This document shows, piece by piece, positions 14,397 to 46,283 of a DNA stretch of 64,000 nucleotides; positions within the stretch are counted from its first letter, which is position 1; every line of letters begins with the position of its first letter. The notes below the pieces were generated by a model. It did not search any database, had not been told where the DNA came from, and saw only the letters and a list, made by a program, of their open reading frames with translations. Position numbers and translations under genes: made by a program. The DNA is taken from positions 62,001-126,000 of the forward strand of contig NZ_BONX01000049.1 of the NCBI RefSeq assembly GCF_016862935.1, given 5' to 3'. This DNA comes from Plantactinospora mayteni (lineage in GTDB: Bacteria > Actinomycetota > Actinomycetes > Mycobacteriales > Micromonosporaceae).

Positions 14397-14413
14397 GTTC
14401 TGTATTGCAGAAC
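14397..14413. promoter_or_regulatory. Inverted-repeat operator, site A
   Basis: GTTCTG-TATTG-CAGAAC, a perfect 6-bp inverted repeat with a 5-base spacer, 199 bases upstream of the SDR gene at 13407-14198. It has the same arms and spacing as site D at 46267-46283. Two further small palindromes lie close by (TCGTACATTACGA at 14350-14362 and CTAGA/TCTAG at 14380-14397), and an extra half-site GTTCTG is at 14422-14427. The IclR protein at 26435-27208 is the proposed binder, by inference. Confidence 0.65.
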
Positions 14414-14481
14414 GATTGCGGGTTCTGCTGGTGCCCGGATCGGCCCGGACCCTGGGATTCGATGCGGCCCGGACCCCGGGT

Positions 14482-15282
14482 TCAGTGGAAGAAAGCGCCG
14501 CCGTCGACCACGACGGTCTGGCCGGTGACGAAGCTCGACATCGGGCCGGCCAGGAACCGCACCGCCCCGACCACGTCCCGGGGGCGCTGCTCGCGGGCCA
14601 GTACCCGCTTGCCCGGCGCGGCCCGGCGCAACCCGGCCAGCTCGGCGCCGCCGTCCAGGATGCCGTCGCTGACCGTGAAACCGGGCGCCACGGCGTTGAC
14701 CAGGATGTTGTCCGCACCCAGTTCCCGGGCGGTGGCCCGGGTCATCGCGATCACCGCACCCTTGCTGGCGACGTAGTGCAGCAGGTGCGAGACGCCCTTG
14801 AACGCGGTGGTGGAGGCGATGTTGACGATCCGGCCGCCGCCGCGGTCCCGCATCGGCCCGACCACAGCCCGGATGCAGAGGTACGACCCCAGCACGTTGA
14901 CGTCCATCACCCGCTGCCACTCGGCGACGTCGATCTCCTCCAGTGGCCCCGGCCGGAGCGTGGTGAAGATGCCGGCGTTGTTGACCAGTATGTCGATCCC
15001 GCCGTACGCGCTGACCACCTTGGCGGCCAGTTCCCGGGTCGCCGACTCCGACGAGACGTCCACCGGCACCCCGAGCGCGTCGAGTCCGGCGTCCCGCAGT
15101 TCGGCGGCGGTCTCCGCCGCGCCGGCCCGGTCGGCGACCACCACTCGGGCACCGGCACAGCCGAGGTCCTCGGCGATGGCCCGGCCGATCCCGATCGCCC
15201 CGCCGGTGACGATCGCGACCTGACCGGTCAGCTCGGTCGCCCCGGCCAGCAGGTTCACCGGCCGGTCCCGGGCGGTACTCAT
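14482..15282 (-). CDS. SDR-family oxidoreductase
   Basis: NAD(P)-dependent dehydrogenase of 266 residues with TGGAIGIGRAIAEDL near residue 25, NNAGIF near 103 and an intact catalytic YVASK near 167. The N-terminal 15 residues precede the Rossmann fold. The start overlaps the end of the aldehyde dehydrogenase gene (ATGA), so it is the last gene of the long catabolic run. It may oxidise or reduce an alcohol or ketone intermediate of the aromatic pathway; the substrate is unknown. Confidence 0.88.
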   Translation of the reverse strand: MSTARDRPVNLLAGATELTGQVAIVTGGAIGIGRAIAEDLGCAGARVVVADRAGAAETAAELRDAGLDALGVPVDVSSESATRELAAKVVSAYGGIDILVNNAGIFTTLRPGPLEEIDVAEWQRVMDVNVLGSYLCIRAVVGPMRDRGGGRIVNIASTTAFKGVSHLLHYVASKGAVIAMTRATARELGADNILVNAVAPGFTVSDGILDGGAELAGLRRAAPGKRVLAREQRPRDVVGAVRFLAGPMSSFVTGQTVVVDGGAFFH

Positions 15283-16775
15283 CGGTCCAGCCCGGCCAGG
15301 TTGACGTACTTGAGTTCCAGCCACTCGTCGAGGCCGTACTTCGAGCCCTCCCGGCCGATGCCGGACTGCTTGATCCCGCCGAACGGCGCCTGCTCGCCGG
15401 AGACCCGTCCGGTGTTGACCGCCACCATGCCGGTCTCGATCGCCTCCGCCGTCCGCCAGATCTGCCCGAGGTTGTGCCCGTAGAGATAGGCGACCAACCC
15501 GTACTCGGAGTCGTTGGCCAGCGCGACCGCCTCCTCCTCGGTGCCGAAGCTCCGGATCGCCGCCACCGGGCCGAAGGTCTCCTCCCGCCAGGCCAGCGAC
15601 TCCGCGGAGAGCCCGTTGACCACGGTCGGCTGGAAGAAGGTGCCACCCAGCTCGTGCGGAGCACCGCCGGTCAGTACCCGGCCGCCCCGGTCGACCAGGT
15701 CTGCGACGTGCCGGCGTACCTTCGCCAGGCCCTGCGCGTCGATCAGCGGGCCCATCTCGACGCCCTCGGTGAAGCCGGTGCCGACCCGCACCGCCTCGGT
15801 ACGCCGCAGCAGCGCCTCGGTGAACCGCTCCCGGATCCCCTCCTGCACCAGGATCCGGTTGGCCGCCGTGCAGATCTGCCCGGCGTTGCGATATTTGGCG
15901 GAGAAGATCCCCTCGACCGCCAGCTCCGGGTCGGCGTCGTCGAAGACCACGAACGCGGCGTTGCCGCCGAGTTCCAGGGAGACCTTCTTGATCCCGTCCG
16001 CGCACTGCCGCATCAGCAGCCGGCCCACCTCGGTCGAGCCGGTGAAGCTGAGCTTGCGGACCACCGGGTTGCCGGTCAGCTCGCGGCCGATCTCCGGCGC
16101 ATCCTGCGCCGACCCGGTGACGATGTTCAGTACCCCCGGCGGCACCCCGGCCCGCCGGCCCAGCTCGGCCAGGGCGAGTGCGGTCAGCGGGGTCTGCTCG
16201 GCCGGTTTCAGCACCAGCGCGCAGCCGGCGGCCAGCGCGGGCGCCGCCTTCCGGGTGATCATCGCGGCCGGCAGGTTCCACGGGGTGATCCCGGCGACCA
16301 CCCCGACCGACTGCTTCCACACCAGGATCCGTTCGGTCGGCGAGTGCGACGGGATCACGTCGCCGTAGACCCGCCGCCCCTCCTCGGCGAACCAGTCCAG
16401 GAACGCGGCACTGTAGAGCACCTCGCCGCGCGCCTCCGGGAACGGTTTGCCCTGCTCGGCGGTGAGCACCGTGGCGACATCGTCCACATGGGAGCGGATC
16501 AGCTCGGCCCAGCGGCGCAGGATCCCCGACCGGTCGATCGCGGTACGCCGCCGCCAGTCCGGCAGCGCCCGCCGAGCCGCCTCGATCGCCCGGGCCGTCT
16601 CCGCCCGGCCGAACCGGGGTACCTCGGCGAGCAGTTCGCCGGTCCCCGGATCATGCACCGGGAACCGGGCACCGTTCTCCGCGCCGACCCACTCGCCGTC
16701 GACGTACGCGTCGGTGCGCAGCAGGGTGCGGTCGGCGATCCTGGAGGTGATCACATCACCGATTGCCGTGGTCAA
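15279..16775 (-). CDS. NAD(P)-dependent aldehyde dehydrogenase (succinate-semialdehyde dehydrogenase-like)
   Basis: Aldehyde dehydrogenase superfamily enzyme of 498 residues. The catalytic Glu is in LELGGNAAFVVFDDAD near residue 268, the nucleophile Cys in GQICTAANR near 300, and the C-terminal FGGIKQSGIGREG closes the fold. It most resembles GabD-type enzymes but could act on aromatic aldehydes such as vanillin or on ring-cleavage semialdehydes. TTG 16775 is chosen because GGGAGG precedes it by 4 bases; GTG 16754 is an alternative. It lies 28 bases after the CoA-ligase-like gene. Confidence 0.88.
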   Translation of the reverse strand: MTTAIGDVITSRIADRTLLRTDAYVDGEWVGAENGARFPVHDPGTGELLAEVPRFGRAETARAIEAARRALPDWRRRTAIDRSGILRRWAELIRSHVDDVATVLTAEQGKPFPEARGEVLYSAAFLDWFAEEGRRVYGDVIPSHSPTERILVWKQSVGVVAGITPWNLPAAMITRKAAPALAAGCALVLKPAEQTPLTALALAELGRRAGVPPGVLNIVTGSAQDAPEIGRELTGNPVVRKLSFTGSTEVGRLLMRQCADGIKKVSLELGGNAAFVVFDDADPELAVEGIFSAKYRNAGQICTAANRILVQEGIRERFTEALLRRTEAVRVGTGFTEGVEMGPLIDAQGLAKVRRHVADLVDRGGRVLTGGAPHELGGTFFQPTVVNGLSAESLAWREETFGPVAAIRSFGTEEEAVALANDSEYGLVAYLYGHNLGQIWRTAEAIETGMVAVNTGRVSGEQAPFGGIKQSGIGREGSKYGLDEWLELKYVNLAGLDR

Positions 16776-16803
16776 CGTTCCTCCCGCCGGATGTGCATCG
16801 GCG

Positions 16804-21812: not shown

Positions 21813-21852
21813 CGTAGCCACGATTCCAATTACCGGAAGAGATGGATCAGAG

Positions 21853-21869
21853 ATTCTGCAACCCGGAAC
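21853..21869. promoter_or_regulatory. Inverted-repeat operator, site B
   Basis: ATTCTG-CAACC-CGGAAC in the 164-base gap upstream of the flavin monooxygenase, 41 bases from its start. The hexamers are identical to those of site C at 26364-26380 and match sites A and D in 10 of 12 positions. This gap also implies a promoter inside the long catabolic run. Confidence 0.6.
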
Positions 21870-21976: not shown

Positions 21977-22735
21977 TCAGCCGGCGGCGTACCGGTCGCG
22001 CAGCCGGTAGATGTCGAGGGTCAGTTCGCCGTGACGGATCCGGTCGAGATAGCGCCGCTCGTCGGCCTGGCGCTGCCGGGCGGCGGCGAGTACCGCGTCG
22101 ACCCGGTCGGCCGGCAGCACGAGTACGCCGTCCTCGTCGGCGAGTACCAGGTCGCCGTCGTGCACGGTGACCCCGCCGAGCACGATCGGGGCGCCGACCG
22201 TACCCGGATCGCTCTTGATGGTGCCGCGGACCGCGACCGAACTGCTGAAGGTCGGGAAGTCGCGGGCGGCGAGCGCGGCGGTGTCCCGGACCCCGCCGTC
22301 GATCACGAGCCCTCCGATGCCGCGCTGCTGGGCGGCGACGGTGAGCACCTCGCCCCAGTAGCCGCACGGTTCGCCCTGCGCGGCCACCACCAGCACCTGG
22401 CCGGACCGGGCCGCCTCGACGGCGATGTGCAGCGGCAGGTTGTCGGCCGGCGCGGTCCGCACCGGCAGGGCCGGACCGGCCAGCCGGGCTCCGGGCCAGG
22501 CCGGCCGCAGGGTGTACGGCAGGAAGCACTCCTGCCGGGACGCCTCGTAGACGGTGGCGGTGCCGAGCCCGAGCAGTTCCGCCGCCACCTCGTCGAAGGC
22601 GGCATACCCGGTGCCTGTCATCGGCTCGACCGGCCTCGGCTGCTCGGCTGGCGCCAGCGGCGTGCCCAGCGTCGGCGGCGTGCCGGGGTCGGGAGCGGGC
22701 CGCCCGGCGGCACCCACCGGCTCGACCGGCGGCAT
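21977..22735 (-). CDS. RraA-family aldolase-like protein, copy 1
   Basis: Member of the RraA / HMG-CHA aldolase family, 252 residues. These metal-dependent class II aldolases cleave 4-carboxy-4-hydroxy-2-oxoadipate to pyruvate and oxaloacetate. The active-site block reads YWGEVLTVAAQQRG followed by VIDGGVRDTAAL. A Pro-rich N-terminal extension of 38 residues precedes the conserved fold; ATG 22621 would remove it. ATG 22735 is kept because it overlaps the stop of copy 2 (TGATG). It is the last of three adjacent family members. Confidence 0.85.
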   Translation of the reverse strand: MPPVEPVGAAGRPAPDPGTPPTLGTPLAPAEQPRPVEPMTGTGYAAFDEVAAELLGLGTATVYEASRQECFLPYTLRPAWPGARLAGPALPVRTAPADNLPLHIAVEAARSGQVLVVAAQGEPCGYWGEVLTVAAQQRGIGGLVIDGGVRDTAALAARDFPTFSSSVAVRGTIKSDPGTVGAPIVLGGVTVHDGDLVLADEDGVLVLPADRVDAVLAAARQRQADERRYLDRIRHGELTLDIYRLRDRYAAG

Positions 22736-23427
22736 CAGGCTTCCGCTCGGCGTTGTAGCTGGTGGTAGCCGTGCCGGCGGCGGGCCTCGGCGAGGCTGCT
22801 CCCGGCCAGGATCTCGGCCACGATCGCCTCCTCGCTGGCGTGGATCCGGCCGGCCAGCGCCAGCACCTCGTCCTCGACGTCCGGCGGCACCGCCAGTACG
22901 CCGTCGGCGTCGCCGAGCAGCAGTTGCCCGGCGGCCACCTGGACCCCGCCGACCGTCACCGGCCGGCCGACGTCGGAGACCTCGACCCGGTCCTTGCCGG
23001 TACGCATGAACCGGCCCCGGGAGTAGAGCGGATAGCCCAGGTCCAGCGCCCGGGCGACATCCCGGCAGACCCCGTCGATGACCGTGCCGGCCACGCCCCG
23101 GTGGTGCGCCATGGCGGTGAGGATGTCGCCCCAGACGGTGCAGTCGGTACGCCCGGCGTTGTCCAGTACCACCACCTGGCCGGGCGGCACGTCGTCGAGA
23201 TAGTCGCCGACGCTGCCGGCCGGATGACCGGCGGTGACGTAGCGGACCGTGAAGGCGCGCCCGCAGAGCCGGGCACCGTCGGCGAGCGGTGCGATCCCGA
23301 GCAGGCTGCCGGGGCGGCCCAGCCGGTCGAGTGCGTCGGAGACGGTCGCGGTCGAGTACGCCGCCAGCGGGTGGCTCATGCCGGAGTCGGCTACCGCCCG
23401 CCCGAGCCGATCTGTGCTGCCCACCAT
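22735..23427 (-). CDS. RraA-family aldolase-like protein, copy 2
   Basis: RraA / CHA-aldolase family protein of 230 residues. The active-site block VWGDILTAMAHHRG and VIDGVCRDVARA retains the Asp of WGD and the Arg-Asp pair, so it is the best candidate among the three for an active aldolase. Its start overlaps the stop of copy 3 by one base (TGATG), with GGAGGAG just upstream. The C-terminal helix (EEAIVAEILAGSSLAEARRRHG) resembles known HMG/CHA aldolases. Confidence 0.88.
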   Translation of the reverse strand: MVGSTDRLGRAVADSGMSHPLAAYSTATVSDALDRLGRPGSLLGIAPLADGARLCGRAFTVRYVTAGHPAGSVGDYLDDVPPGQVVVLDNAGRTDCTVWGDILTAMAHHRGVAGTVIDGVCRDVARALDLGYPLYSRGRFMRTGKDRVEVSDVGRPVTVGGVQVAAGQLLLGDADGVLAVPPDVEDEVLALAGRIHASEEAIVAEILAGSSLAEARRRHGYHQLQRRAEA

Positions 23428-24131
23428 CACTCCTCCACCGAGGGGAACTTGCTGTCGTGCATCACCTGGTCGACCGGCTGACCGGAGCGGACCGCCTCGG
23501 CCATGCCCTCCTCGCGCCGGACGATGCGCTCGGCGAGCCCGACGACCCGCTCCGCCTCGGCGGCGGGGACGAAGACCACCCCGTTGCGGTCCGCGACGAC
23601 CCAGTCCCCGGTCTGCACCGGTACGCCCGCCACCTCGATCCGCTCGTCCATCCCGAGCTGCACGATCCGGCCCCGGGCGCTGACCGGCACCACCGCCCGG
23701 CCGAAGACCGGGAAGTCGAGTTCCTCGCTCTCGGCGATGTCCCGGCAGGCCCCGTCGATCACCACGCCGCCGATGCCGCGCCGGGTGGCGGCCAGTGCCA
23801 GGATGCCGCCCCAGCAGGAGACGTCGAGCCGGCCGTCGTTGGCGATCACGAGTACCTGGCCGGGGCCGGCGGAGTCGACCGCCGCCGCCGCGATGTGCGC
23901 CGCCGGCTGCCCGTGCTGGCGGGGTCCGGCCCGTACGGTGCGGACCGTACCCACCACCGCCTCCCCGACCGGCCAGAGTGGACGGATCCCGGTGGTCGCC
24001 CCGGCCAGCCCGAGGGTGTCCAGCGCGTCGGAGAGCGCGCAGGTGTCCAACCGCGCGATCCGGTCCCGCAGCGGCACCCCGTCCGGTCCGGTCCTGCCCG
24101 CGCCGGTCGTACCCACGGTGGCGCCGGTCAT
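23427..24131 (-). CDS. RraA-family aldolase-like protein, copy 3
   Basis: Third RraA-family member, 234 residues, directly after the extradiol dioxygenase gene (ATGA overlap). The block reads CWGGILALAATRRG and VIDGACRDIAES, so Gly replaces the Asp of copy 2 in WGD. The copies are clearly different from each other, so this is an old duplication or recruitment, not a recent one. Different 2-oxo-acid aldol substrates or oxaloacetate decarboxylase activity are possible. Confidence 0.87.
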   Translation of the reverse strand: MTGATVGTTGAGRTGPDGVPLRDRIARLDTCALSDALDTLGLAGATTGIRPLWPVGEAVVGTVRTVRAGPRQHGQPAAHIAAAAVDSAGPGQVLVIANDGRLDVSCWGGILALAATRRGIGGVVIDGACRDIAESEELDFPVFGRAVVPVSARGRIVQLGMDERIEVAGVPVQTGDWVVADRNGVVFVPAAEAERVVGLAERIVRREEGMAEAVRSGQPVDQVMHDSKFPSVEE

Positions 24132-25159: not shown

Positions 25160-25189
25160 GGCTGCTCCTCTCCGTGCGCCCGTCCGGAC

Positions 25190-26363: not shown

Positions 26364-26380
26364 ATTCTGATCAGCGGAAC
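26364..26380. promoter_or_regulatory. Inverted-repeat operator, site C
   Basis: ATTCTG-ATCAG-CGGAAC, in the gap between the amidohydrolase and IclR genes and upstream of the amidohydrolase. Hexamers are identical to site B. Further half-sites reading CAGAAC (26398-26403) and a degenerate CGCAAC follow at 23-base steps in the adjoining direct repeats, so several dimers could bind side by side. Confidence 0.6.
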
Positions 26381-26430: not shown

Positions 26431-26434
26431 CTGG

Positions 26435-34662: not shown

Positions 34663-34679
34663 CTACGGTTACCTCGTTC

Positions 34680-35729: not shown

Positions 35730-36769
35730 CTCTCGTCCTCACCGGGTAGGGAGTCGTCCGCGCAGGGGAAGAAACAGGCCCACTCGTGCCGGGGTTCCCG
35801 CTCGGTCAGCTCCGGCCGCTCGTGCTGGCAGCGATCCTGCGAACGCGAGCAGCGCGGGGCGAACGCGCAGCCGGGGTCGAGGACCCGCAGGTCCGGCGGG
35901 CGGCCGGAGATCACCGGCAGCGGGGCGTGCGGCGGACGTTCCAGCCTCGGGGTCGCGTCCAGCAGGGCCCGGGTGTACGGCATCCGGACGTGCGCGATCA
36001 TCCGGCGGGTCGGGGCGCGTTCGACGACCCGGCCGGCGTACATCACCGCGACCTGGTCGGCGTAGGAGGCGGCCAGCCCCATGTCGTGGCTGATCAGTAC
36101 GAGCCCCATCGCGAACCGCTGTTGCAGGTCGAGCAGCAGGTCCATGATCTGCGCCTGGGTGGTGACGTCCAGCGCGGTGGTCGCCTCGTCGGCGATCAGC
36201 AGCCCCGGCTGGCAGGCCAGCGCGATGGCGATCATCACCCGCTGGCGCATCCCGCCGGAGAGCTGGTGCGGGTACTCGTGGAAGCGCCGGGCCGGCGCGG
36301 GCAGCCGTACCATCGCCAGCAGCTCGACCGCGCGCTCCCGGGCCTGGCGGCGGCTCATCGGCAGGTGCACCCGGATCGCCTCGGTGAGCTGGTTGCCGAT
36401 CCGCATCGTCGGGTTCAGCGAGCGGGCCGGGTCCTGGAAGATCATCCCGACCTCCCGGCCCAGGCAGCGCCGCAGCTCCTTCTCGCCGAGCCCGACCATC
36501 TGGCGCTCGCCGAGCCGGATCGAGCCACGCACCGTGGCGGTCCGGGGCAGCAGCCCCATCACGGCCCGGGAGGTGACGGTCTTGCCGGAGCCGGACTCGC
36601 CGATCACCGCCAGGGTCTGGCCGGCGTGCACGGTGAGGTCGACCCCGCGTACGGCGTGCACCAGGGCGTCCCGGGTCCGGAAGGTGACCTCCAGGTTCTC
36701 GATGGTCAGCAGCGGCGCGTCCGGGTCGGCGGTCCGGGTCGCGGTGTCCGGCTGGATCTGGGTCGTCAT
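35726..36769 (-). CDS. Peptide-type ABC transporter ATPase (DppD/OppD)
   Basis: 347-residue ATPase with Walker A GESGSGKT near residue 57, signature LSGGMRQRVMIAIAL near 170, Walker B LLIADEATTALDV, and the DppD-type C-terminal block CAFAPRCSRSQDRC near 310. Partner of DppF downstream. Both flanking junctions are 4-base ATGA overlaps, so the four transporter genes are tightly coupled. Family members energise uptake of peptides, nickel or other small solutes. Confidence 0.93.
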   Translation of the reverse strand: MTTQIQPDTATRTADPDAPLLTIENLEVTFRTRDALVHAVRGVDLTVHAGQTLAVIGESGSGKTVTSRAVMGLLPRTATVRGSIRLGERQMVGLGEKELRRCLGREVGMIFQDPARSLNPTMRIGNQLTEAIRVHLPMSRRQARERAVELLAMVRLPAPARRFHEYPHQLSGGMRQRVMIAIALACQPGLLIADEATTALDVTTQAQIMDLLLDLQQRFAMGLVLISHDMGLAASYADQVAVMYAGRVVERAPTRRMIAHVRMPYTRALLDATPRLERPPHAPLPVISGRPPDLRVLDPGCAFAPRCSRSQDRCQHERPELTEREPRHEWACFFPCADDSLPGEDER

Positions 36770-37677
36770 GGCGCACCGGTCCGGGCTCGCAGGGCGTCGC
36801 CGAGGGTGTTGAGGCAGACGATGGTGAGGAAGAGGCAGGCGCTCGGGATCAGCACCAGTTCCGGATTGCTGGAGATGTACGCCTGACCGCGCGAGATCAT
36901 CATCCCCCAGCTCGGCTCCGACGCCGGTACCCCGAAGCCGAGGAAGCTCAGTGACGCCTCGATGGCGATCGCGGCGGCGACCCAGAGCAGGCTGTAGGTG
37001 AGCAGTTGCGGCAGCACGTTCGGGGCGATGTGCCGGAGCAGGATGGCACCGTCCCGCTGGCCGGCGAGCCGGGCGGCGACGACGTACACCTGTTCGCGGA
37101 GCCGGAGGGTGGCGGCCCGGGCCAGCCGGGCGAAGGTCGGGATGGAGAAGAACGAGATCGCCCAGATCACGTTCAACTTGCTCGGCGTGAGGTAGGTCGA
37201 GACGACCAGCACCAGCACCAGGGACGGGAACGCGATCAGCATGTCCAGCAGCCGCATGGTGACCGTCTCCAGCCAGCCGCCCCGGAACGCGGCGAACATC
37301 CCGAGCGAGCCGCCGAGCAGCAGCCCGATCGCGTTGGAGGTGAGCCCCACCTCCAACGACACCCGCCCACCGTGCAGCAGCCGGGAGACGATGTCGTTGC
37401 CGAGCGGATCGGTGCCGAGCAGGTGTCCGGGCGAGAACGGCGGCAGGTTGGCCGCGAGCAGCGAGCCGGCCGTCGGGGACGGCAGGTCCCGGTAGACCAG
37501 CGGCCAGGCGAAGCAGGCCAGCACGATCAGCCCGAGGATGGTGCCGGGAATCCAGAGGCCCTTGCCGGTACCCCGGCGCCGGCTCGCCCGGGCCGGGCCG
37601 GTCGCGGTGGCGTCGAGCGGGTCGGCGGCCGGGTCGGCACCCCGGGCGGTGGCGAGGTCAGGCGGCTGGACGGCCAT
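36766..37677 (-). CDS. Peptide-type ABC transporter permease (DppC/OppC)
   Basis: 303-residue permease with an extended N-terminal tail, a first membrane segment near residues 45-63 and five more after residue 100. LLGTDPLGNDIVSRLLHGGRVSLEVG near 90-115 is the typical DppC signature, and the EAA loop lies near 195-215. Its start lies 20 bases inside the DppB gene. It forms the membrane channel with DppB. Confidence 0.92.
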   Translation of the reverse strand: MAVQPPDLATARGADPAADPLDATATGPARASRRRGTGKGLWIPGTILGLIVLACFAWPLVYRDLPSPTAGSLLAANLPPFSPGHLLGTDPLGNDIVSRLLHGGRVSLEVGLTSNAIGLLLGGSLGMFAAFRGGWLETVTMRLLDMLIAFPSLVLVLVVSTYLTPSKLNVIWAISFFSIPTFARLARAATLRLREQVYVVAARLAGQRDGAILLRHIAPNVLPQLLTYSLLWVAAAIAIEASLSFLGFGVPASEPSWGMMISRGQAYISSNPELVLIPSACLFLTIVCLNTLGDALRARTGAP

Positions 37678-38728
37678 GGCGGATCCTTGGGTCGAGGACG
37701 GCGTAGAGCAGGTCGGTGACGAGGTTGGCGCCGACCACGAAGCAGGCCATCACCACCACGTACGCCTGGACGACCGGAATGTCCCGGCTGTTGATCGCCT
37801 GGAGCAGCCCCTGCCCCATGCCGGGCAGCCCGAACATCTGCTCGATGATCACGGTGCTGCCGATCAGCGCCCCGAACTGGAGCCCGACGATGGTCAGCAG
37901 GCTGAACACCGAGTTGCGCAGCGCGTGCCGGATCAGCACCTGCCAACTGCCGACCCCCTTGGCCCGGGCGGTGGTGATGTAGTCCTCCCGGAGCATCTGG
38001 TCGACGATGTCGGCCCGGAGTACCCGGGTGTACTCGCAGAAGAGCGCGAACGCGATCGCGGTGGCCGGCAGTACCATCGCCCGCAGGTTCGGGCCGATGC
38101 CCTGGGCGATCGGGACGTACCCGACGGCGGGCAGCACCCGCAGGCCGACCGCGAAGATCAGCACCAGTACCAGGGCGAAGACGAAGTTCGGCACCGAGAG
38201 CCCGAACATGCTGACCTGCATCCCGATCCGGTCGGCGAACCCGCCCGGCCGCTTCGCCGCGACCACCGCGGTCGGCACCGCGACCAGCAGGGCCAGCGCG
38301 AAGGCCAGTACCACCAGTTCGAGCGAGACCGGCAGGGCCCGGCCCAGGATCGCGGTGACCGGCTCGTTGTTCTGCAACGAGTTGCCGAGGTCGCCGGTGA
38401 GCGCGTTGCCGAGCCACTGGAGATAGCGGATCAGGAACGGCTCGTCCAGGTTGAGCCGGGCCGAGAGCGCGGCCACCTGCTCCGGGGTGGCGTCGTCGCC
38501 GAGCAGCGCGACGGCGGCGTTGCCGGGCAGCAGGTTCATCAGGCAGAACGTGATGAAGGTGGCGCCCCAGACCACCGGGACGGCCTGGAGCACCCGCGTG
38601 ATCGCGACGCGTACCGCGGGCGAGCGGCCGAGCAGCCGGGCCGGCCGGTCGAGCAGGCCGGCCAGCCGGTTCGGACGCGACTGCGACCGGGGCGGCCGGC
38701 CGGGTGACCGGGTGAGGGTGTCAGACAT
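37658..38728 (-). CDS. Peptide-type ABC transporter permease (DppB/OppB)
   Basis: 356-residue permease; family length is about 310-340, and the excess is an Arg-rich N-terminal 40 residues before the first membrane helix. VVWGATFITFCLMNLLPG near 53, the EAA loop LREDYITTARAKG near 235, and a C-terminal DLLYAVLDPRIR are standard DppB features. First gene of the operon DppB-C-D-F-DsbA-like. The variant operator site E lies 58 bases upstream. Confidence 0.92.
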   Translation of the reverse strand: MSDTLTRSPGRPPRSQSRPNRLAGLLDRPARLLGRSPAVRVAITRVLQAVPVVWGATFITFCLMNLLPGNAAVALLGDDATPEQVAALSARLNLDEPFLIRYLQWLGNALTGDLGNSLQNNEPVTAILGRALPVSLELVVLAFALALLVAVPTAVVAAKRPGGFADRIGMQVSMFGLSVPNFVFALVLVLIFAVGLRVLPAVGYVPIAQGIGPNLRAMVLPATAIAFALFCEYTRVLRADIVDQMLREDYITTARAKGVGSWQVLIRHALRNSVFSLLTIVGLQFGALIGSTVIIEQMFGLPGMGQGLLQAINSRDIPVVQAYVVVMACFVVGANLVTDLLYAVLDPRIRHGRPAA

Positions 38729-38785: not shown

Positions 38786-38802
38786 GTTTTGGAGAGCAGA
38801 AA
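38786..38802. promoter_or_regulatory. Degenerate inverted-repeat operator, site E
   Basis: GTTTTG-GAGAG-CAGAAA, which matches the perfect sites A and D at 10 of 12 arm positions with the same 5-base spacer. It lies 58 bases upstream of the first DppB gene. The nearby sequence TTTCGTCCACGAGAA (38818-38832) is a second, unrelated partial palindrome. Confidence 0.45.
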
Positions 38803-38858
38803 CGAGACCTACCCACGTTTCGTCCACGAGAATTCCTAACACATCCGGGTTGGTGGTG

Positions 38859-39410
38859 TCACGGGTTGCGTCCGCAGGCCAGCAGCAGCCGGGTCAGCAG
38901 GTCAGCCTCGGGTTCGGCCGCCGGCAGCGGCGCCCCGAACCGGTCCGCCGGCAGGCTCCCCTCAGCCGCCGCCGGGGCGAAGAACCCGTACGCGAGCCGG
39001 ACCAGGCCCTCGTCCATCGCCTCGGCGGCCCCGATCGCCCGGGCCAGGTCCCAACTGTGTACGACCAGCCCGCTGACCCGCATGACCAGGAACTCCTCGC
39101 CGCTGACCGTGCGCTTCGGCAGCCGTACCTCGGCGGTCATCGCACCCGGCTCACGGAACGCGGACCGGATCACCTCGACGCTGGCCGACCACGCCTCGGC
39201 CAGGTCACCGGTGACCGGGCTCCGGTCCACCTCCTCACCGCGCAGCAGTTGCCCGCAGTGCGCGTTCCCCTCGACGACGTGCCGGACCAGCGCCGACACG
39301 TCCCACTCGGTGCACGGGGTACCGGCCGTCCACTGGTCCGGGCCGACCGCCGCCAGCCGCTTCCCGAACGTCTCCAGAGCCCTGTCCAGCTCGTCGAGCA
39401 GTGCCATCAC
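38859..39410 (-). CDS. TIGR03086 / DinB-like protein of the mycothiol-dependent isomerase superfamily
   Basis: 183-residue four-helix protein related to the N-terminal domain of mycothiol-dependent maleylpyruvate isomerase. Features are TPCTEWDVSALVRHVVEG near residues 31-48 and VVHSWDLARAIG near 117-128, with His residues in metal-ligand positions. It lacks the second domain of the Corynebacterium enzyme. It is on its own between the two transporter operons, 42 bases before the second binding-protein gene ends. With a gentisate dioxygenase and a FAH hydrolase in the window, isomerisation of maleylpyruvate is a possible role; other TIGR03086 proteins have unknown function. Confidence 0.75.
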   Translation of the reverse strand: MMALLDELDRALETFGKRLAAVGPDQWTAGTPCTEWDVSALVRHVVEGNAHCGQLLRGEEVDRSPVTGDLAEAWSASVEVIRSAFREPGAMTAEVRLPKRTVSGEEFLVMRVSGLVVHSWDLARAIGAAEAMDEGLVRLAYGFFAPAAAEGSLPADRFGAPLPAAEPEADLLTRLLLACGRNP

Positions 39411-39452
39411 GCAGTCTCCTCACAGGTCCGCAGTCTCACGGGTCCGCGTCTC

Positions 39453-41027
39453 CTAGCAGGTCAGCCGGGCGCTCTTGAACTGCGCGCCGACCGCCGCGAA
39501 ATCCACGTCGGCCAGGCACTTGTTCTGGAAGGTGTAGTTCGGCCCGCTGATGATCGGGATGTCCACCGCCAGGTCGTTCATCGAGGTCCAGACCTTGCGC
39601 CAGGTGGTCCTCCGGACCTCCGGGTCGACGGTCCGGTTCGCCGACTGGATCAGCTCGGGGACCTCGGGGTGCTCCCGGGCGAAGCCGTGCTTGCCCTGGG
39701 GGGTGTTCGGCGACTGGAACGAGGTGTAGAACTGCGGGTCGTCGATGCCGCCGCTGAAGGCGTACGCCATCTGGTAGGTGCCGTCCGAGTACGCCTCGCT
39801 GAGCTGCGGGCCCTGCACCGCCTTGACCTGCGCCTTGATCCCGCACTGCTGCCACTGCTGGGCCAGCGCGTTCGAGATCACCTGCGAGTGGCCGCCGATG
39901 TTGAGCAGGTCGAACTCCAGCCCGCCGAGCTGGTCGACCAGCGCCTTGCCCTTGACCGGGTCGAACGGGTACGGGAACTGCGCCTTCGCGCCGTCCACCC
40001 CGCCATCCGGGTAGTAGAGGCTGTCCGCGCCGGCCAGCACGTACGCCGGAGTGACCCAGCCGCGCTGCACGTTTGTGGCGATCGAGTCCCGGTCGGTGCA
40101 GTAGTTGATCGCCTGCCGCGCCTCAGGCCGGTTGAACGGCGGCTTGAAGGTGTTGATCGGCAGGAAGGCGTAGAGGGTGTTCTCGCCCGCGATGGTGGCG
40201 ATCTTCTGGTTCGCCTTGGCGTCGTCCAGCACGTTCGGCGGGGTGGAGACCCCGCTGACCTGCACGCTGTCGATCGAGCCGGAGGCGACGTGCTGGTAGG
40301 AGACCTGCGCCTCCGGGCTGGTGTTGATGAACTTGACCTCGGCCAGGTGCACGTTGGCCCGGTCCCAGTACTTCTCGAACGGCTTGAGTACCAGCTCCTC
40401 GCCGGGCTTGTGGCTGACGATCTCGAACGGCCCGGCCCCGACCGGCTTCAGCCCGAACTGCTGCTGCCCCGCCTTCTTGTGCGCGGTCGGCGAGCCGATC
40501 AGCGTCGCCGGGGTGTACGTCAGGAAGGCGACCATCGTGGCGGTCGGCTCGGTGAAGGTCATCGTGACCTGGTGCTCGCCGCTCGCGGTGACCGAGGACA
40601 TTTGCCTGAAGTACTGCGCGTTCGGCGACTCCGCCTGCTTGTACCGCTCGAAGTTGTAGACCACCGCCTCGGCGTCGAACGGCGTACCGTCGGAGAACGT
40701 CACCCCCTGGCGCAACTCGATGGTGAGCGTCTTCAGGTCGTCGCTGTACTTGTAGCCGGTGGCCAGGTCGGGCACGAAGTCGCCGCCCTTGGCCGTCGGC
40801 GGGTCGAAGAGCGAGCCGTAGACGTCCAGCGAGATCGGCACCGACTTGCTGATGTAACCGGTGCCGCCCGGGTCCAGGGTCTTGTAGTTGTAGCCGCCGA
40901 CCGTGATCCGGCCGTTCGCCCCGGCACCACCGGCGCCATCGCCGCCACCGGAGTCGCCGCAGGCCGACGCAGCCAGGCCGACGCTCGCGACCAGGGCCAG
41001 TCGGAGGAGTACGTTCCGCCGTCTCAT
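39453..41027 (-). CDS. Peptide-type ABC transporter substrate-binding lipoprotein (SBP_bac_5)
   Basis: 524-residue receptor of the DppA/OppA class. Signal peptide MRRRNVLLRLALVASVG ends with the lipobox ASAC (Cys 23), followed by a Gly/Asp linker. ELRQGVTFSDGTPFDAEAV near residue 105 and ARQAINYCTDRDSIATN near 300 are family features. ATG 41027 overlaps the stop of the DsbA-like gene by 4 bases (ATGA). It is the last gene of the second DppBCDF-DsbA-like operon and the natural receptor for that transporter. Confidence 0.92.
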   Translation of the reverse strand: MRRRNVLLRLALVASVGLAASACGDSGGGDGAGGAGANGRITVGGYNYKTLDPGGTGYISKSVPISLDVYGSLFDPPTAKGGDFVPDLATGYKYSDDLKTLTIELRQGVTFSDGTPFDAEAVVYNFERYKQAESPNAQYFRQMSSVTASGEHQVTMTFTEPTATMVAFLTYTPATLIGSPTAHKKAGQQQFGLKPVGAGPFEIVSHKPGEELVLKPFEKYWDRANVHLAEVKFINTSPEAQVSYQHVASGSIDSVQVSGVSTPPNVLDDAKANQKIATIAGENTLYAFLPINTFKPPFNRPEARQAINYCTDRDSIATNVQRGWVTPAYVLAGADSLYYPDGGVDGAKAQFPYPFDPVKGKALVDQLGGLEFDLLNIGGHSQVISNALAQQWQQCGIKAQVKAVQGPQLSEAYSDGTYQMAYAFSGGIDDPQFYTSFQSPNTPQGKHGFAREHPEVPELIQSANRTVDPEVRRTTWRKVWTSMNDLAVDIPIISGPNYTFQNKCLADVDFAAVGAQFKSARLTC

Positions 41028-41857
41028 CTTCCCGCTCCGTTCTGTTCGGTCCCCGTCGCTGTTGCCGTCGTCCCCGTTGTGGTTGCCGTCGTCCCCGTTG
41101 TGGTTGCCGTCGTCTCCGTTGTGGTTGCCGTCGTGGTTTCCGGCTGCTGCTTTCCCGGCTCCGGGGCGGGTTCGGGGGCGGCCCAGGGGCGCTGGCCCCA
41201 CGGCCACCACGGGGTCCGGGCGCCGTCGTCGAAGAAGACCGCCGGCAGCGTGGGCGGGCCGAGCCGGCCGCGCTTGAGTTCGGAGAAGTTGTCGTACCGC
41301 ACCAGCCAGGAGACGTGCCGCCAGAGTTCGACCGCCTCCTCGTCGCTCGGCATCCGGTTGAGTACCGGGCCGAAGATCATCGGTCCGTCGCCGCCGTCCA
41401 GCGCGATGGTGGGTACCCCGATGCTGCGGGCCCGGTCGATCAGCGCCTGGTGTTCCGCGACCACCGCCGCCCAGGTCTGCGGGTCGGCCAGCGCGGCGTC
41501 GAAGAGTTCGGCGTCGAAGCCGGCCTCGACCACCGACTCCCGGACCGCCACCACCAGGTCCGGCGCGGGCGGCCGGGATTCCCAGGTACGCCGGGCCAGC
41601 GCGCGGTAGAACGGACCGATCGCCTTCGAGCCGGCCTTCTCCCGGATCGCCACCGCACAGCGCAGCGCCGGACCGGAGATCGCCTCCAGTTCGAGCGGGT
41701 CGGCGCCCTCGGGGAGATTCAGGATCTCCAGGCAGAACAGGCCCCAGTCCAGCTCGACCTCACCCAGCTCGGCCAGTCGCCAGGCCCACTTGCTGGTGAG
41801 ATAGCACCACGGACACCGGGGGTCGAAATATATCTTCACGGATTCCACAGAGATCAC
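41024..41857 (-). CDS. DsbA-like thiol oxidoreductase, Rv2466c family, CPWC site, Thr-rich tail
   Basis: 277-residue paralogue of the proteins at 10177 and 33889. Active site YFDPRCPWC has Cys 15 and Cys 18; the cis-Pro loop GVPTIALDGG, FGPV and FSELKRGR follow. The last 45 residues are a Thr/Ala/Gly low-complexity tail coded by 21-base tandem repeats. No signal peptide. It is inserted between DppF and the binding protein with ATGA overlaps on both sides, so it is translated in step with the transporter. This is the strongest evidence that the DsbA-like protein and the transporter work together. Confidence 0.87.
   Translation of the reverse strand: MISVESVKIYFDPRCPWCYLTSKWAWRLAELGEVELDWGLFCLEILNLPEGADPLELEAISGPALRCAVAIREKAGSKAIGPFYRALARRTWESRPPAPDLVVAVRESVVEAGFDAELFDAALADPQTWAAVVAEHQALIDRARSIGVPTIALDGGDGPMIFGPVLNRMPSDEEAVELWRHVSWLVRYDNFSELKRGRLGPPTLPAVFFDDGARTPWWPWGQRPWAAPEPAPEPGKQQPETTTATTTETTATTTGTTATTTGTTATATGTEQNGAGR
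41061..41136. repeat. 21-base tandem repeat coding for a Thr-rich tail
   Basis: Three units (41061-41081, 41082-41102, 41103-41123; first two identical) of the type starting GTTGCCGTCGTC, and a partial fourth. On the minus strand they encode seven-residue Thr/Ala/Gly units in the C-terminal tail of the DsbA-like protein. Confidence 0.9.
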
Positions 41858-42993
41858 CCTTGTTCTCCGGCAGCGGTTCGATGAGTGGGTACGGCGCCCT
41901 GACCAGCGGCGACCGCCGCTGCGGAACCGGCCGCCGACGCGGAACCGGCCGACGGGTCGGAGCCGGCCGACGGGTCAGAGCCGGCTGAGACGGCGGCGGC
42001 CGGTGGGGCGCCGGTGAGGGGGAAGTGACAGGCGACCCGGTGTCCCGGGGCGATCTCGCGCAGCTCCGGCACCGACTCGGCGCAGGTCGGCCGGGCGTAG
42101 ACGCAGCGGGTGCGGAACCGGCAGCCGGAGGGTGGCCGCAGCGGCGAGGGCTGCTCGCCGACCACCGGGATCCGCTCCCGGACCGTCTCGGCGTCCAGCG
42201 CCGGCGGGATCGCCGACAGCAGCGCGGCAGTGTACGGGTGGGCCGGGTGGGCGAACAGCTCGTCCGTCGGCGCCGTCTCGCAGAGCCGGCCGAGATACAT
42301 GATCCCGGTCCGGTCCGCGAGGGTACGCACCACGGCGAGGTCGTGCGCGATCAGCAGGCAGGTCAGCGACAGCCGGCGCTTCAGCTCGAAGAGCAGGTTG
42401 AGCACCTGGGCCTGCACCGACACGTCGAGCGCGGTCACCGGCTCGTCCAGGATCACCAGGTCCGGCCGGGAGACCAGGGCCCGGGCGATGGCCACTCGCT
42501 GGGCCTGGCCGCCGGAGAGTTCCCGGGGTCGCCGGCCGGCGAACCGGCTGGCGCTCAGGCCGACCAGGTGCAGGATCTCGGCAACCCGGCGACGCCGCTC
42601 CGACACCGAGCGGACCCCGGCGGTGACCAGCGGCTCGGTCACGCTCCGCTCCACCGTCCAGCGTGGATCGAGCGCCGAGAACGGGTCCTGGAAGACCATC
42701 TGCACGCCGCCGGTACGCCGCCCGCCCCGCTCCGGCCGACGCCGCCGGCCCACCGTACGGCCGCTGACGGTGACCCGGCCGCTGACCGGGCCGGGTGCGC
42801 CGATCACCGTACGAGCCAGTGTGGACTTGCCGGAGCCGGTCTCGCCGACCAGGGCGAAGGTCTCGCCCCGGGCGATCGTGAAGCTCACCCCGGCGACCGC
42901 CGACACGGTGGCCCGACGGAACGGCCGCCGCCCCTTCACCCTGAACTCCTGCACCACGTCGACGCAGTCCAGCACGGTCGGCTCGATGGTCAT
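41854..42993 (-). CDS. Peptide-type ABC transporter ATPase (DppF/OppF)
   Basis: 379-residue ATPase with Walker A GETGSGKST near residue 50, signature LSGGQAQRVAIARAL near 160, Walker B LVILDEPVTALDV, and C-terminal CRFRTRCVYARPTC near 300. About 45 residues beyond the normal end form an Ala/Gly/Ser/Asp tail with repeated AGSDPS units from an 18-base repeat. ATG 42993 overlaps the DppD stop (ATGA); the DsbA-like start overlaps its own stop. Confidence 0.92.
   Translation of the reverse strand: MTIEPTVLDCVDVVQEFRVKGRRPFRRATVSAVAGVSFTIARGETFALVGETGSGKSTLARTVIGAPGPVSGRVTVSGRTVGRRRRPERGGRRTGGVQMVFQDPFSALDPRWTVERSVTEPLVTAGVRSVSERRRRVAEILHLVGLSASRFAGRRPRELSGGQAQRVAIARALVSRPDLVILDEPVTALDVSVQAQVLNLLFELKRRLSLTCLLIAHDLAVVRTLADRTGIMYLGRLCETAPTDELFAHPAHPYTAALLSAIPPALDAETVRERIPVVGEQPSPLRPPSGCRFRTRCVYARPTCAESVPELREIAPGHRVACHFPLTGAPPAAAVSAGSDPSAGSDPSAGSASAAGSAAAVAAGQGAVPTHRTAAGEQG
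41923..41994. repeat. 18-base tandem repeat coding for the DppF tail
   Basis: Four diverged 18-base units (41923-41940, 41941-41958, 41959-41976, 41977-41994) of the type GGAGCCGGCCGACGGGTC. On the minus strand they code for AGSDPS-like hexapeptides after the conserved end of DppF. Confidence 0.85.
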
Positions 42994-44081
42994 CTGGTCA
43001 CCTCCGGTTGCCGGGTCGACGCCGGGTCCGCCGCCGCAGGCTCCTGCCCGGTCACCGCCACCGGGTGCCAGCAGCGGACGGAGTGACCGGTCGACAGTTC
43101 GACCAGGGGCGGGCGCCGCTCGGCACAGTCGTCCCGTACGTGCCCGCACCGGGGCGCGAAGGCGCAGCCCGGCGGTGGCGTACGCGGATCCGGCGGCAGT
43201 CCCTCGATCGGCCGGGGCGGGCGGCCCGGGGTACCGACGTCCGGCACCGCCCGGACCAGCGCCTGGGTGTACGGCATCAGGGACGCCCGCGCGATGCCCT
43301 TGGCCGGCAGGGTCTCGACGGCCTGCCCGCCGTACATCACCAGTACCTGTTCGGCCCGGGAGGCGGCGAGCGCGAGATCGTGGGTGACCACGACCGTGCC
43401 GATCGACCGGGATTCGCGCAGCCCGTCCAGCAGGTCCATGATGGCCGCCTGGGTGGTCACGTCCAGCGAGGACGTGGGCTCGTCACAGAAGATCACCTTC
43501 GGTCGGCAGGCCAGCGCGATGGCGATGACGATCCGCTGCCGCATCCCGCCGGAGAGTTCGTGCGGATAGCCGAAGTAGCGCTCCTCCGGTGCGGCGATCC
43601 CGACGTCCCGCATCAGCTCCACGCTGCGGCGGCGTGCCTCCGCCCGGCCCAGCGGCGGCTCACCGGCCGCCTCGTCCGGCCGGCCCGACCCGGCGAGCAT
43701 CGCCTCGGCGATCTGCGGCCCGACCCGCATCGTCGGGTTCAGCGACCGGGTCGGGTCCTGGAACACCAGCGACGCGACGCCGGTCACGAAGCCGCGCCGC
43801 CGCGCCTTCGGCAGGGTGGCCAGGTCGACGCCGTCCAGGCGTACGGTGCCGGTGACCTCGAAGCGGCGCGGGTCGAGCAGCCCGAGTACCGCCCGGATGC
43901 CGATCGACTTGCCCGCGCCGGACTCGCCGACGATCGCCAGTGACCGGGCCGGAGCCACCCGATAGGAGAGCCCGTCGACCAGGGTCAGCAGGGTCGAGCC
44001 GCGCCGCACCCGTACGGTCAGGTCGTCGACCTCGACCACCGGGGTGGCCGCCGGGGCCCGGACGGTGCCGTTCTCCGTCAT
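42990..44081 (-). CDS. Peptide-type ABC transporter ATPase (DppD/OppD)
   Basis: 363-residue ATPase. Walker A GESGAGKS near residue 54, signature LSGGMRQRIVIAIAL near 185, Walker B VIFCDEPTSSLDV, C-terminal CAFAPRCGHVRDDC near 310. Its ATG shares one base with the DppC stop (TGATG), and its stop overlaps the DppF start. It pairs with the ATPase at 41854-42993. Confidence 0.93.
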   Translation of the reverse strand: MTENGTVRAPAATPVVEVDDLTVRVRRGSTLLTLVDGLSYRVAPARSLAIVGESGAGKSIGIRAVLGLLDPRRFEVTGTVRLDGVDLATLPKARRRGFVTGVASLVFQDPTRSLNPTMRVGPQIAEAMLAGSGRPDEAAGEPPLGRAEARRRSVELMRDVGIAAPEERYFGYPHELSGGMRQRIVIAIALACRPKVIFCDEPTSSLDVTTQAAIMDLLDGLRESRSIGTVVVTHDLALAASRAEQVLVMYGGQAVETLPAKGIARASLMPYTQALVRAVPDVGTPGRPPRPIEGLPPDPRTPPPGCAFAPRCGHVRDDCAERRPPLVELSTGHSVRCWHPVAVTGQEPAAADPASTRQPEVTR

Positions 44082-45028
44082 CAGCGCTCCTCGGTCAGCC
44101 GACCGCGGAGCCCGTCCGCGACCAGGTTCAGGGACAGGACGGTGACGAAGAGCGCCATGCTGGGCAGCACGACCAGCCGGGGATCACTGCTCAGGTACGC
44201 GTCGCCGGAGGCGATCAGGTTGCCCCAGGTGGGTTCCGGCTCCGGTACGCCGAGCCCGAGATAGCTCAGCCCGGCCTCGATCATCATCGCGGTGCCGATG
44301 GTGAAGAGGGCGAAGCCCAGCAGCGGGGGCAGCACGTTCGGCAGGATGTGTCCGAAGATCACCCGGTGGGCGGCGGCACCGTCGCTGCGCGGGGCGGTGA
44401 CGAAGTCCCGGTGCCGCACGGTCAGGGTCTGCGACCAGGCCAGCCGGCCGAACCGGGAGACCCCGAAGAGGCTGATCGCCAGCGTGGTGTTGGTCAGGCT
44501 CGGGCCGAGGTAGTCGGCGATCACCAGCGCCAGGATCAGCCCGGGGAAGGCGAGCAGGGTGTCGAAGAGCCGCATCACGAACGTCTCGTAGAAGCCGCCG
44601 AAGAAGCCGGCCGTCACCCCGAGCAGCGCGCCCGCGACCAGGCTGATCGCGGTGGCGCCGAGACCGACGACGATCGACACCCGGCCGCCGTGCAGCAGTC
44701 GGGAGAGCACGTCGTTGCCGAGTTCGTTGGTGCCGAGCAGGTGCCCGGACGAGCCCATCGGGGCCATCGCGTCGGCCAGGTCGCCGGTGACCGGCGACGG
44801 CAGGCCCAGCAGCGCCGGGCCGGCGAAGCAGGCCAGCACCACCAGCAGGAATACCGCCGCCGGGATGCCTACCGCCGGGGCCCGGAGCGCCCGGCCGAGC
44901 CGCGCCAGCCGGGCGAGGTGCCGGTCCCGGCGGGGAGCCGCGATCCACGCCTCGTCGACGGCGGGGACCGCGACCGCCGCGTCCGGCGCCGGCCCGGGTG
45001 CGGGCCGCTGGGGTACGTCAACAGTCAT
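44081..45028 (-). CDS. Peptide-type ABC transporter permease (DppC/OppC)
   Basis: 315-residue permease with a hydrophilic N-terminus, first membrane helix near residues 54-72 and the signature LLGTNELGNDVLSRLLHGGR near 100. The EAA-like loop is near 190-215. ATG 45028 is chosen because GGGAGAGG lies 6-8 bases upstream; a longer frame adds 20 residues without support. It lies 89 bases after DppB, the only sizeable gap within this operon. Confidence 0.92.
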   Translation of the reverse strand: MTVDVPQRPAPGPAPDAAVAVPAVDEAWIAAPRRDRHLARLARLGRALRAPAVGIPAAVFLLVVLACFAGPALLGLPSPVTGDLADAMAPMGSSGHLLGTNELGNDVLSRLLHGGRVSIVVGLGATAISLVAGALLGVTAGFFGGFYETFVMRLFDTLLAFPGLILALVIADYLGPSLTNTTLAISLFGVSRFGRLAWSQTLTVRHRDFVTAPRSDGAAAHRVIFGHILPNVLPPLLGFALFTIGTAMMIEAGLSYLGLGVPEPEPTWGNLIASGDAYLSSDPRLVVLPSMALFVTVLSLNLVADGLRGRLTEER

Positions 45029-45117
45029 CGGTTCGCCTCTCCCTCGCCCTCGTCTCCACCTGTTCCACGCGGCCGTGCTGAATGACACCGCCGTGCACCG
45101 CTGCTCCGGTCATCGGC

Positions 45118-46086
45118 TCAGCCGGTCCGGGCACGGCGGCGGGCGCCGGGGCGTACCCGGGGGTCGAGTCGCATCTGGACCAGCTCGCCGACCAGGTTCG
45201 CCACCACCACACCGACCGCGATCAGCACGATCGCGCCCTGGAGCAGGGTGGCGTCGCGGTTGTTGATGGCACCGAGCACCAGCCGGCCGATGCCGGGGAT
45301 CGAGAAGACCTCCTCGACGATGACCACGCCGGAGAGCAGGAACCCGGTGGTGAGCGCGATCAGCGTGATCAGCCCGCCGACCGAGTTGCGGGCCACGTGC
45401 AGTACCAGGACCCGGGTCTTCGACAGGCCCTTCATCCGGGCGAGGGTGACGTACTCCTCGTTCTCCAACTGTTCGTAGATCTCGCCGCGCAGCACCCGCA
45501 TGTACTCGGGGAAGACCGACACCCCCAGCGCGACCGACGGGATGATCATCGCCTTGAGGTTGGCGCCCCAGCCTCCGGTGGCCGGGTCGACCCAGCCGAT
45601 CGAGCTGACCATCCGCAGACTGGTCGCGAAGACCACGATCAGCATCAGGGCCACCACGAACGCCGGCACCGAATTCCCGATCAGCCCGAGTACGGTGACG
45701 AACCGGTCGGCCCAGCGGAACCGCAGCGAGAGCAGGGTGGTGAGCAGGGCCAGCGTGATGCCGACGAGCTGCGCGCCGATCAGCAGCTCGACGGTCGGCG
45801 GCAGAGCCAGCCAGATCGCCTCGCTGACCCGCTGGTGGGTGATGACCGAGGTACCGAAGTCGCCCTGCACCGCCGCGGCGAGCCAGTCCAGGTAGCGGAC
45901 GTAGAGCGGGTCGTCCAGCCGCAACTGCGCGGTGAGTTCGGCGGCGGCCTCCGGGGTGTAGAAGTCGCCGAGGATCGCGTAGACGACGTTGCCCTGGAGG
46001 ATGTTGACCAGGCCGAAGCCGAGCGCGGTCACGCAGAGGACGACGACCAGCATCTGGAGCAGCCGGGCGCCGATCACCCGGAGCAT
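45118..46086 (-). CDS. Peptide-type ABC transporter permease (DppB/OppB)
   Basis: 322-residue permease of normal length with six membrane segments. The first is near residues 8-30, the EAA loop LENEEYVTLARMKG is near 210-223, and the C-terminus ends in MRLDPRVRPG. First gene of the operon DppB-C-D-F-DsbA-like-binding protein. A promoter at 46223-46251 and the perfect operator D at 46267-46283 lie upstream. Confidence 0.92.
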   Translation of the reverse strand: MLRVIGARLLQMLVVVLCVTALGFGLVNILQGNVVYAILGDFYTPEAAAELTAQLRLDDPLYVRYLDWLAAAVQGDFGTSVITHQRVSEAIWLALPPTVELLIGAQLVGITLALLTTLLSLRFRWADRFVTVLGLIGNSVPAFVVALMLIVVFATSLRMVSSIGWVDPATGGWGANLKAMIIPSVALGVSVFPEYMRVLRGEIYEQLENEEYVTLARMKGLSKTRVLVLHVARNSVGGLITLIALTTGFLLSGVVIVEEVFSIPGIGRLVLGAINNRDATLLQGAIVLIAVGVVVANLVGELVQMRLDPRVRPGARRRARTG

Positions 46087-46222
46087 CGCGGTGTTCCTTC
46101 GGACGATCGACGAGGCCGGCTGAGCATCCTGGACTCCCTTGCCCTATGGGGTCGTCACGTGCTCGTCCGACCCGTCCGGGATCCGCCCGTCGGCCGGGAA
46201 CCCCGGCCCGAGGCTTAGCCGG

Positions 46223-46251
46223 ACGCTACAATTCGATTCCGCTCGTAGCAA
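46223..46251 (-). promoter_or_regulatory. Candidate promoter of the second DppBCDF operon
   Basis: Minus-strand -35 TTGCTA (46246-46251), a 17-base spacer and -10 TAGCGT (46223-46228). The start of transcription would fall about 130 bases before the DppB start codon. Operator D ends 15 bases upstream of the -35 box, a position more usual for an activator than a repressor. Confidence 0.55.
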
Positions 46252-46266
46252 CGCCCCCCTCTCTTG

Positions 46267-46283
46267 GTTCTGCATGTCAGAAC
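46267..46283. promoter_or_regulatory. Inverted-repeat operator, site D
   Basis: GTTCTG-CATGT-CAGAAC, a perfect 6-bp inverted repeat with a 5-base spacer. The arms are identical to site A at 14397-14413, 32 kb away. It is 181 bases upstream of the DppB gene and adjoins its candidate promoter. Confidence 0.7.

Follow-up and report, generated by a model that had tools for sequence, protein, structure and literature searches.

A 17-bp palindrome and a probable IclR regulon of aromatic-catabolism and transport operons in Plantactinospora mayteni

In the available excerpts of a comparative survey of IclR-family regulators (Suvorova and Gelfand 2021, PMC8222616), the GTT-11-AAC subgroup of IclR group 1 is given the consensus GTTYCRYW3RYGRAAC, tandem IclR sites lie mainly 18-22 bp apart, also at about three turns, and aromatic regulons typically include transporters. 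The same excerpts list GenR with the operator ATTCC-N7(5)-GGAAT and with 3-hydroxybenzoate and gentisate. A further point of reference is the LigZ-LigY pathway for 5,5'-dehydrodivanillate in Sphingobium SYK-6 (PMC12997858). Here we analyse a 17-bp palindrome that recurs in a stretch of 64,000 nucleotides from Plantactinospora mayteni (assembly GCF_016862935.1, contig NZ_BONX01000049.1, positions 62,001 to 126,000; hereafter, the window), where it precedes five operons that look built for the uptake and breakdown of aromatic compounds. The palindrome is likely to be bound by the product of an IclR-family gene at 26435-27208 of the window.

This palindrome resembles the operators of the GTT-11-AAC subgroup, as excerpted, in its 17-bp length, its symmetry, its GTT...AAC ends, its centre spacing and its occurrence as tandem sites. 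The ends are exact in sites A and E (Table 1); at sites B, C and D, the palindrome is imperfect and an outer base departs from GTT...AAC, a small correction to the sequence-only reading of this stretch that preceded our analysis. A difference from the printed consensus lies in the fifth base of the arm, which is C there and mostly T here (GTTCTG); both occur among the sites, and sites B and C each have the base C there in the right arm, read on the opposite strand. By description rather than by sequence, the system also resembles that of GenR in Corynebacterium glutamicum (i.e., IclR family, equal overall operator length, gentisate-type genes in the regulon), but differs from the GenR regulon, so far as the excerpts describe it, in covering genes of the LigY and LigB types and Dpp importers as well. 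The LigY-like hydrolase beside a class III extradiol dioxygenase recalls the SYK-6 pathway, from which, in the available part of its description, this locus differs by its P450-ferredoxin-reductase set, pair of RraA-type genes, gentisate-type genes and ABC importers. A literature search, which left most subscription journals outside its coverage, returned no published Plantactinospora IclR regulon. We regard the IclR regulon as well supported and as a clear instance of a type of bacterial control circuit that is already known.

We consider it quite probable that the IclR protein encoded at 26435-27208 has the five sites as its operators and would bind them as a dimer. Under its control would be the operons for ring cleavage, both Dpp-type ABC importers, iclR itself and probably a single promoter outside the island, with repression lifted by an aromatic compound. 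On re-checking, the positions and letters of the five copies reported in the sequence-only reading all agree with the DNA. Its claim that each copy lies in the 5' gap of a separate operon stands for all five, the operons being on the minus strand; what does not stand is the gene name "LigJ", the gene in question being closer to LigY.

A genome-wide scan, chosen beforehand as a check on that reading, revealed no swarm of random copies. The perfect palindrome occurs at two places in the 9.84-Mb genome, both of them inside the island (sites A and E), against 0.16 expected genome-wide by an independent-base estimate. The pattern RTTYTG-N5-CRGAAM occurs at seven places, five in the island and two elsewhere, and at none for the control, a comparison that is partly circular because the pattern was fitted to the five sites themselves. 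With up to two mismatches, there are 149 places in the genome vs. 60 for the reversed control, so that looser matches are common and many are necessarily unrelated; the window holds six such matches, namely the five sites and one at 24572, inside a coding gene. With up to three mismatches, the excess in the window is weak (26 matches vs. a shuffle mean of 16.0, with 26 reached in 2 of 100 shuffles), and these loose counts were set aside as of little use.

The sequence-only reading had named absence of the motif from relatives that keep the operons as evidence against itself. Among seven Plantactinospora genomes, including the source genome (G000), a LigB-type gene is present in three (E <= 1e-60) and the IclR in four (E <= 1e-70), and all five sites recur in both of the other operon-keeping genomes, G006 and G004. 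G006 has unchanged arms at every one of the five sites and different spacers at B and E. In G004, site A has unchanged arms and a changed spacer, and one arm change is found in each of B, C, D and E; in that genome, the fitted pattern no longer covers sites B, C and D, and one additional site is located close to E. Perfect copies number two in G000, two in G006, one in G004 and zero in the four genomes of the genus without the operons. The fitted pattern occurs at seven places in G000 (five in the island), nine in G006 (five), eight in G004 (three), three in G002, two in G003, and none in G001 and G005; of the places outside the island in G006 (four of nine) and G004 (five of eight), we examined the G004 counterpart of a match at C74 that is described below. 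The site at the start of iclR is retained in G006, G004 and G002, the last of which encodes an IclR of 89% identity and has both island flanks on one contig, no LigB-type gene, and no DNA matches to most of the island within the 40 kb examined (G002:C143:8001-48000). In that genome, iclR and its start-codon site remain at the island's place though the catabolic island is missing. The orthologous island is carried by P. endophytica NBRC 110450.

These data bear on the view that the sites are alike by chance or as a by-product of duplicated DNA. The DppBCDF and DsbA-like genes are indeed paralogous between operons (42-54% protein identity), and the weak excess at three mismatches would suit such an origin; but the duplicates are old, sites B and C precede unrelated genes, and the palindrome has been retained in congeners while the spacers at E and A have changed. 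Conservation in congeners and the enrichment near iclR genes of other genera, presented next, largely contradict this explanation, which we regard as extremely improbable.

The assignment of the sites to the IclR protein comes from its relatives. The protein has both domains expected from its family in Pfam (HTH_IclR, 49.4 bits, cut-off 22; IclR_C, 149.1 bits, cut-off 24) and is below the NCBIfam equivalog cut-offs for BhcR, PcaR/PcaU, KdgR, AllR and IclR (best, BhcR, 171.8 vs. 350 bits; PcaR/PcaU, 152.5 vs. 284.75 bits). We kept the best 80 of 541 relatives and dropped two Plantactinospora loci, leaving 78 that are 42-56% identical to it. All 4096 six-base arms were searched as palindromes (spacer 5, at most one mismatch) from -500 to +60 around the IclR match: TTTCTG was found at 15 of 78 loci vs. 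1 of 297 control windows drawn from the same loci, and GTTCTG at 12 vs. 2. Two other arms, CGGCGA (14 loci) and CGGCGC (12), score equally high near IclR but are frequent in controls (36 and 17). We used 12 Plantactinospora sites to train a weight matrix, which gave 345 matches of score 9 in 1.18 Mb of the relatives' loci, whereas 60 column-shuffled matrices gave a mean of 139 (standard deviation 48, largest 266). The arm part of this matrix matched at 42 of 78 loci between -220 and +30, and at 24 of 78 just 3' of the IclR stop, a stretch slightly wider than the 250-bp windows that supply the background (193 of 2483). The position just 3' of the stop is that of site C. The enrichment of the palindrome around these relatives makes it likely that the IclR protein of the window binds the five sites.

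Could a different regulator of this genome, e.g., another IclR, be the one that binds? The genome has many IclR-type candidates (53 at first look), and IclR motifs resemble one another within the family, according to the excerpts of PMC8222616. We nevertheless hold this to be quite improbable: no second gene in the genome reaches E <= 1e-40 to this IclR (43 of the 53 candidates were scored), iclR is located inside the island next to site C, and in its relatives, too, the motif is found both before and just after their own gene.

Several sites are double. Among 87 non-redundant sites in the relatives, a second box (score at least 6) lies at 20 bp in 11 cases, at 30 bp in eight and at 31 bp in four (one pair may count from both ends), and other distances from 10 to 70 occur zero or one time each. 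In the window, partners are found for B at -30 (score 9.6), D at +31 (12.4) and E at -31 (7.8), and the partner of the iclR-start site falls just under the threshold of 5.9. Three of six window sites thus have a partner at 30-31 bp. When six positions of the window were picked at random, 20000 times over, a count of three was never reached; and apart from pairs that overlap 30-31, every other pair of adjacent distances between 17 and 119 accounts for at most one of the six sites. The 30-bp partner of B is present in G006 too, and the second box of D has an altered left arm in G004. Monooxygenase genes are divergent from iclR at 10 of the 78 relatives' loci, and in seven of these the gap holds a 30-31 bp pair (weaker box down to 6.5).

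Strong matches to the motif also lie within genes, at 24572-24588 in the LigB-type gene (score 16.9) and at 27020-27036 in iclR (17.6), each with an equal score in G006; these could be intragenic boxes or merely conserved codons. By eye, we noted in the gap from iclR to site C (26375-26434) direct repeats that are imperfect, measure about 23 bp and contain CAGAAC or CGGAAC half-boxes; they are not kept in G006 or G004.

As to mechanism, IclR would bind as dimers to palindromes of the RTTCTG-N5-CAGAAY type, and at B, D and E, which have a second box at a distance of 30-31 bp, paired dimers would probably sit on one face of the helix. Without inducer the protein most likely represses, and an aromatic substrate or a ring-cleavage intermediate would release it. 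It may instead act from these operators mainly as an activator, since sites A, C and E, at 173-199 bp from start codons, leave space for a promoter downstream, sigma-70 scans returned no promoter-like match near A-E, and a title on GenR of C. glutamicum cited in PMC8222616 names both activation and repression. This we think rather unlikely, for two sites are better suited to repression: the iclR-start site, which overlaps the first codon and is directly adjacent to a promoter-like -10, and the second box of B, 11 bp from the first possible monooxygenase start. The iclR-start site, similar to sites located where three Streptomyces iclR genes begin, is likely to serve autorepression.

Control by IclR probably extends beyond the island. 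A match at C74:42879 lies between divergent genes for a thiamine pyrophosphate-dependent decarboxylase and an aldehyde dehydrogenase; the locus (L051 9891-16461) contains a double box, and genes for a PhnU2-like ABC permease and a solute-binding protein adjoin the decarboxylase. Matches to this decarboxylase (E <= 1e-80) occur in exactly those four of the seven genus genomes in which the IclR is present, and double boxes 24-26 bp apart precede the decarboxylases of G000, G006 and G004. No IclR relative (E <= 1e-3) was found in about 36 kb searched near the locus in G000 and G004. The match is a probable distal target of the regulon on another contig. Two further sequences of the genome may be recorded: a match at C10:152682, set aside because by eye it appears to lie inside an open frame, and a tandem repeat at C3:214998-215064, in which three copies of GTCCTGAGGAACAGAAC, one mismatch from the motif, follow at exact 25-bp intervals.

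Other genomes link the same components. A Subtercola metagenome-assembled genome (L063) clusters LigB-, LigY- and RraA-type genes with two iclR genes, DppBCDF and a solute-binding protein; there, one site precedes ligY, and a pair of boxes 30 bp apart precedes the solute-binding protein and Dpp genes. In Modestobacter lapidis (L076), iclR is flanked by monooxygenase, cupin, FAH, RraA and LigB-type genes. The co-occurrence in Subtercola, the near-absence of the motif elsewhere in the genome, the conservation of all five sites and the enrichment at the starts of the 78 relatives all support the earlier suggestion of one regulon under this IclR. Close relatives of ligY occur in six genomes, the source included, of 394 genomes of the class searched. 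Three of the other five, which belong to one genus, have an IclR relative (44%) about 6 kb off and cupin and FAH genes downstream, and one with a contig that offers about 830 bp 5' of ligY has a site of score 11.5 between ligY and the LigB-type gene.

Set against assignment of the operators to IclR are the following points. The gaps around the sites are 71-92% identical overall, so that conservation extends beyond the sites and conservation of the arms is by itself no proof. Near the IclR start, 36 of the 78 relatives have no match of score 8, and some of the 78 loci come from related species, so that the counts are not independent events. Sites A and C have no full second box (scores of -2.3 and -0.4 for a partner). 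G002 keeps the IclR, yet its decarboxylase homologue (52% identical) lacks the site. Lastly, none of the five LigY-bearing genomes outside the genus, including the one with the short contig, has a site of score at least 11 in front of ligY; on this result, we gave up the idea that the motif accompanies ligY operons in general.

Table 1. Motif sites, operons and associated genes in the window (positions count from its first letter)
Feature	Coordinates	Strand	Description
Site A	14397..14413	.	GTTCTGTATTGCAGAAC; perfect palindrome, 199 bp 5' of operon A SDR gene
Site B, main box	21853..21869	.	ATTCTGCAACCCGGAAC; 5' of flavin monooxygenase operon (14482-about 21812)
Second box of B	21823..21839	.	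ATTCCAATTACCGGAAG; 30 bp from main box B, score 9.6
Site C	26364..26380	.	ATTCTGATCAGCGGAAC; between iclR and LigY-like gene, 173 bp 5' of probable start 26191
Additional iclR-start site	27200..27216	.	ATTCTTCATGGCGGAAT; overlaps iclR start codon (27206-27208), score 15.1
Site D, main box	38786..38802	.	GTTTTGGAGAGCAGAAA; 58 bp 5' of operon D DppB
Second box of D	38817..38833	.	GTTTCGTCCACGAGAAT; 31 bp from main box D, score 12.4
Site E	46267..46283	.	GTTCTGCATGTCAGAAC; perfect palindrome, 181 bp 5' of operon E DppB
Partial second box of E	46236..46252	.	ATTCCGCTCGTAGCAAC; 31 bp from main box E, score 7.8
IclR-family regulator, proposed binder	26435..27208	-	HTH_IclR and IclR_C domains
Operon A	10177..14198	-	SDR, crotonase, solute-binding protein, Rv2466c-like DsbA protein
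Operon B	14482..about 21812	-	flavin monooxygenase, gentisate-dioxygenase-like cupin, FAH hydrolase, ADP-forming CoA-ligase alpha part, aldehyde dehydrogenase, SDR
Operon C	21977..26191	-	LigY-like amidohydrolase, class III extradiol dioxygenase, two RraA-type aldolases
Operon D	33889..38728	-	DppBCDF-type ABC transporter, Rv2466c-like protein
Operon E	38859..46086	-	DppBCDF-type ABC transporter, Rv2466c-like protein, solute-binding protein, mycothiol-dependent maleylpyruvate-isomerase-like protein
P450, ferredoxin, ferredoxin reductase	27400..30082	+	divergent from iclR

The gene at the head of operon C, called "LigJ" earlier, matches LigY at 358.8 bits and 4-oxalomesaconate hydratase at 202.9 bits, and the hydratase (gallate) reading was dropped on this difference (359 vs. 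203 bits). Its product is identical to LigY at 170 of 329 aligned residues, a likeness that suggests lignin-type biaryls as the substrate. The zinc ligands of LigY are H6, H8, H179 and E282, and all four are identical in the alignment. Of its neighbours, the class III extradiol dioxygenase is below every NCBIfam cut-off, and one RraA-type aldolase is above that for 4-carboxy-4-hydroxy-2-oxoadipate aldolase (194.5 vs. 179 bits). In operon B, the flavin monooxygenase has PnpA and HspB as its nearest PDB entries, and the best NCBIfam model for the cupin is gentisate 1,2-dioxygenase (TIGR02272; 275.1 bits, under the cut-off of 442.1). The maleylpyruvate-isomerase-like protein of operon E is above its cut-off.

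Some details of the operons stand apart from their regulation. The Rv2466c-like DsbA-fold proteins of operons A, D and E (10177-10920, 33889-34662 and 41024-41857) are 50-54% identical, two with CPWC and one with SPWC. For the alpha part of the ADP-forming acyl-CoA ligase (16804-18300), no ATP-grasp domain was reported and no partner gene was seen among the open reading frames scanned.

From gene content we propose, as an unlikely hypothesis, that the genes of this regulon make up a so far undescribed actinobacterial pathway for lignin-type biaryls, in which one IclR with helically phased double operators would switch the importers and both branches. The Dpp importers would take up the dimer, which the P450 system would demethylate; the LigB-type dioxygenase and LigY-like hydrolase would then split off one ring, and the RraA aldolases would take the aliphatic half. 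The flavin monooxygenase would turn the other, 5-carboxyvanillate-like half into a methoxygentisate, to be finished by the cupin, the isomerase and the FAH enzyme; the chemistry of this second branch is our own suggestion. The P450-ferredoxin-reductase set possibly belongs to the regulon and is possibly the demethylase or hydroxylase system of the pathway. Neither a LigX-type O-demethylase nor a LigW-type decarboxylase was found among the open reading frames of the window scanned with Pfam.

The island thus offers a testable pair of regulator and operator for an uncharacterised catabolic region of Plantactinospora, and the motif is put forward for a clade of IclR proteins present in many actinobacterial genera. 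Dpp-type importers, which are usually annotated as peptide or nickel transporters, would here be tied to aromatic catabolism; and the LigY-like gene, by pointing to lignin-type biaryl substrates, would give a screen for the inducer a concrete set of candidates.

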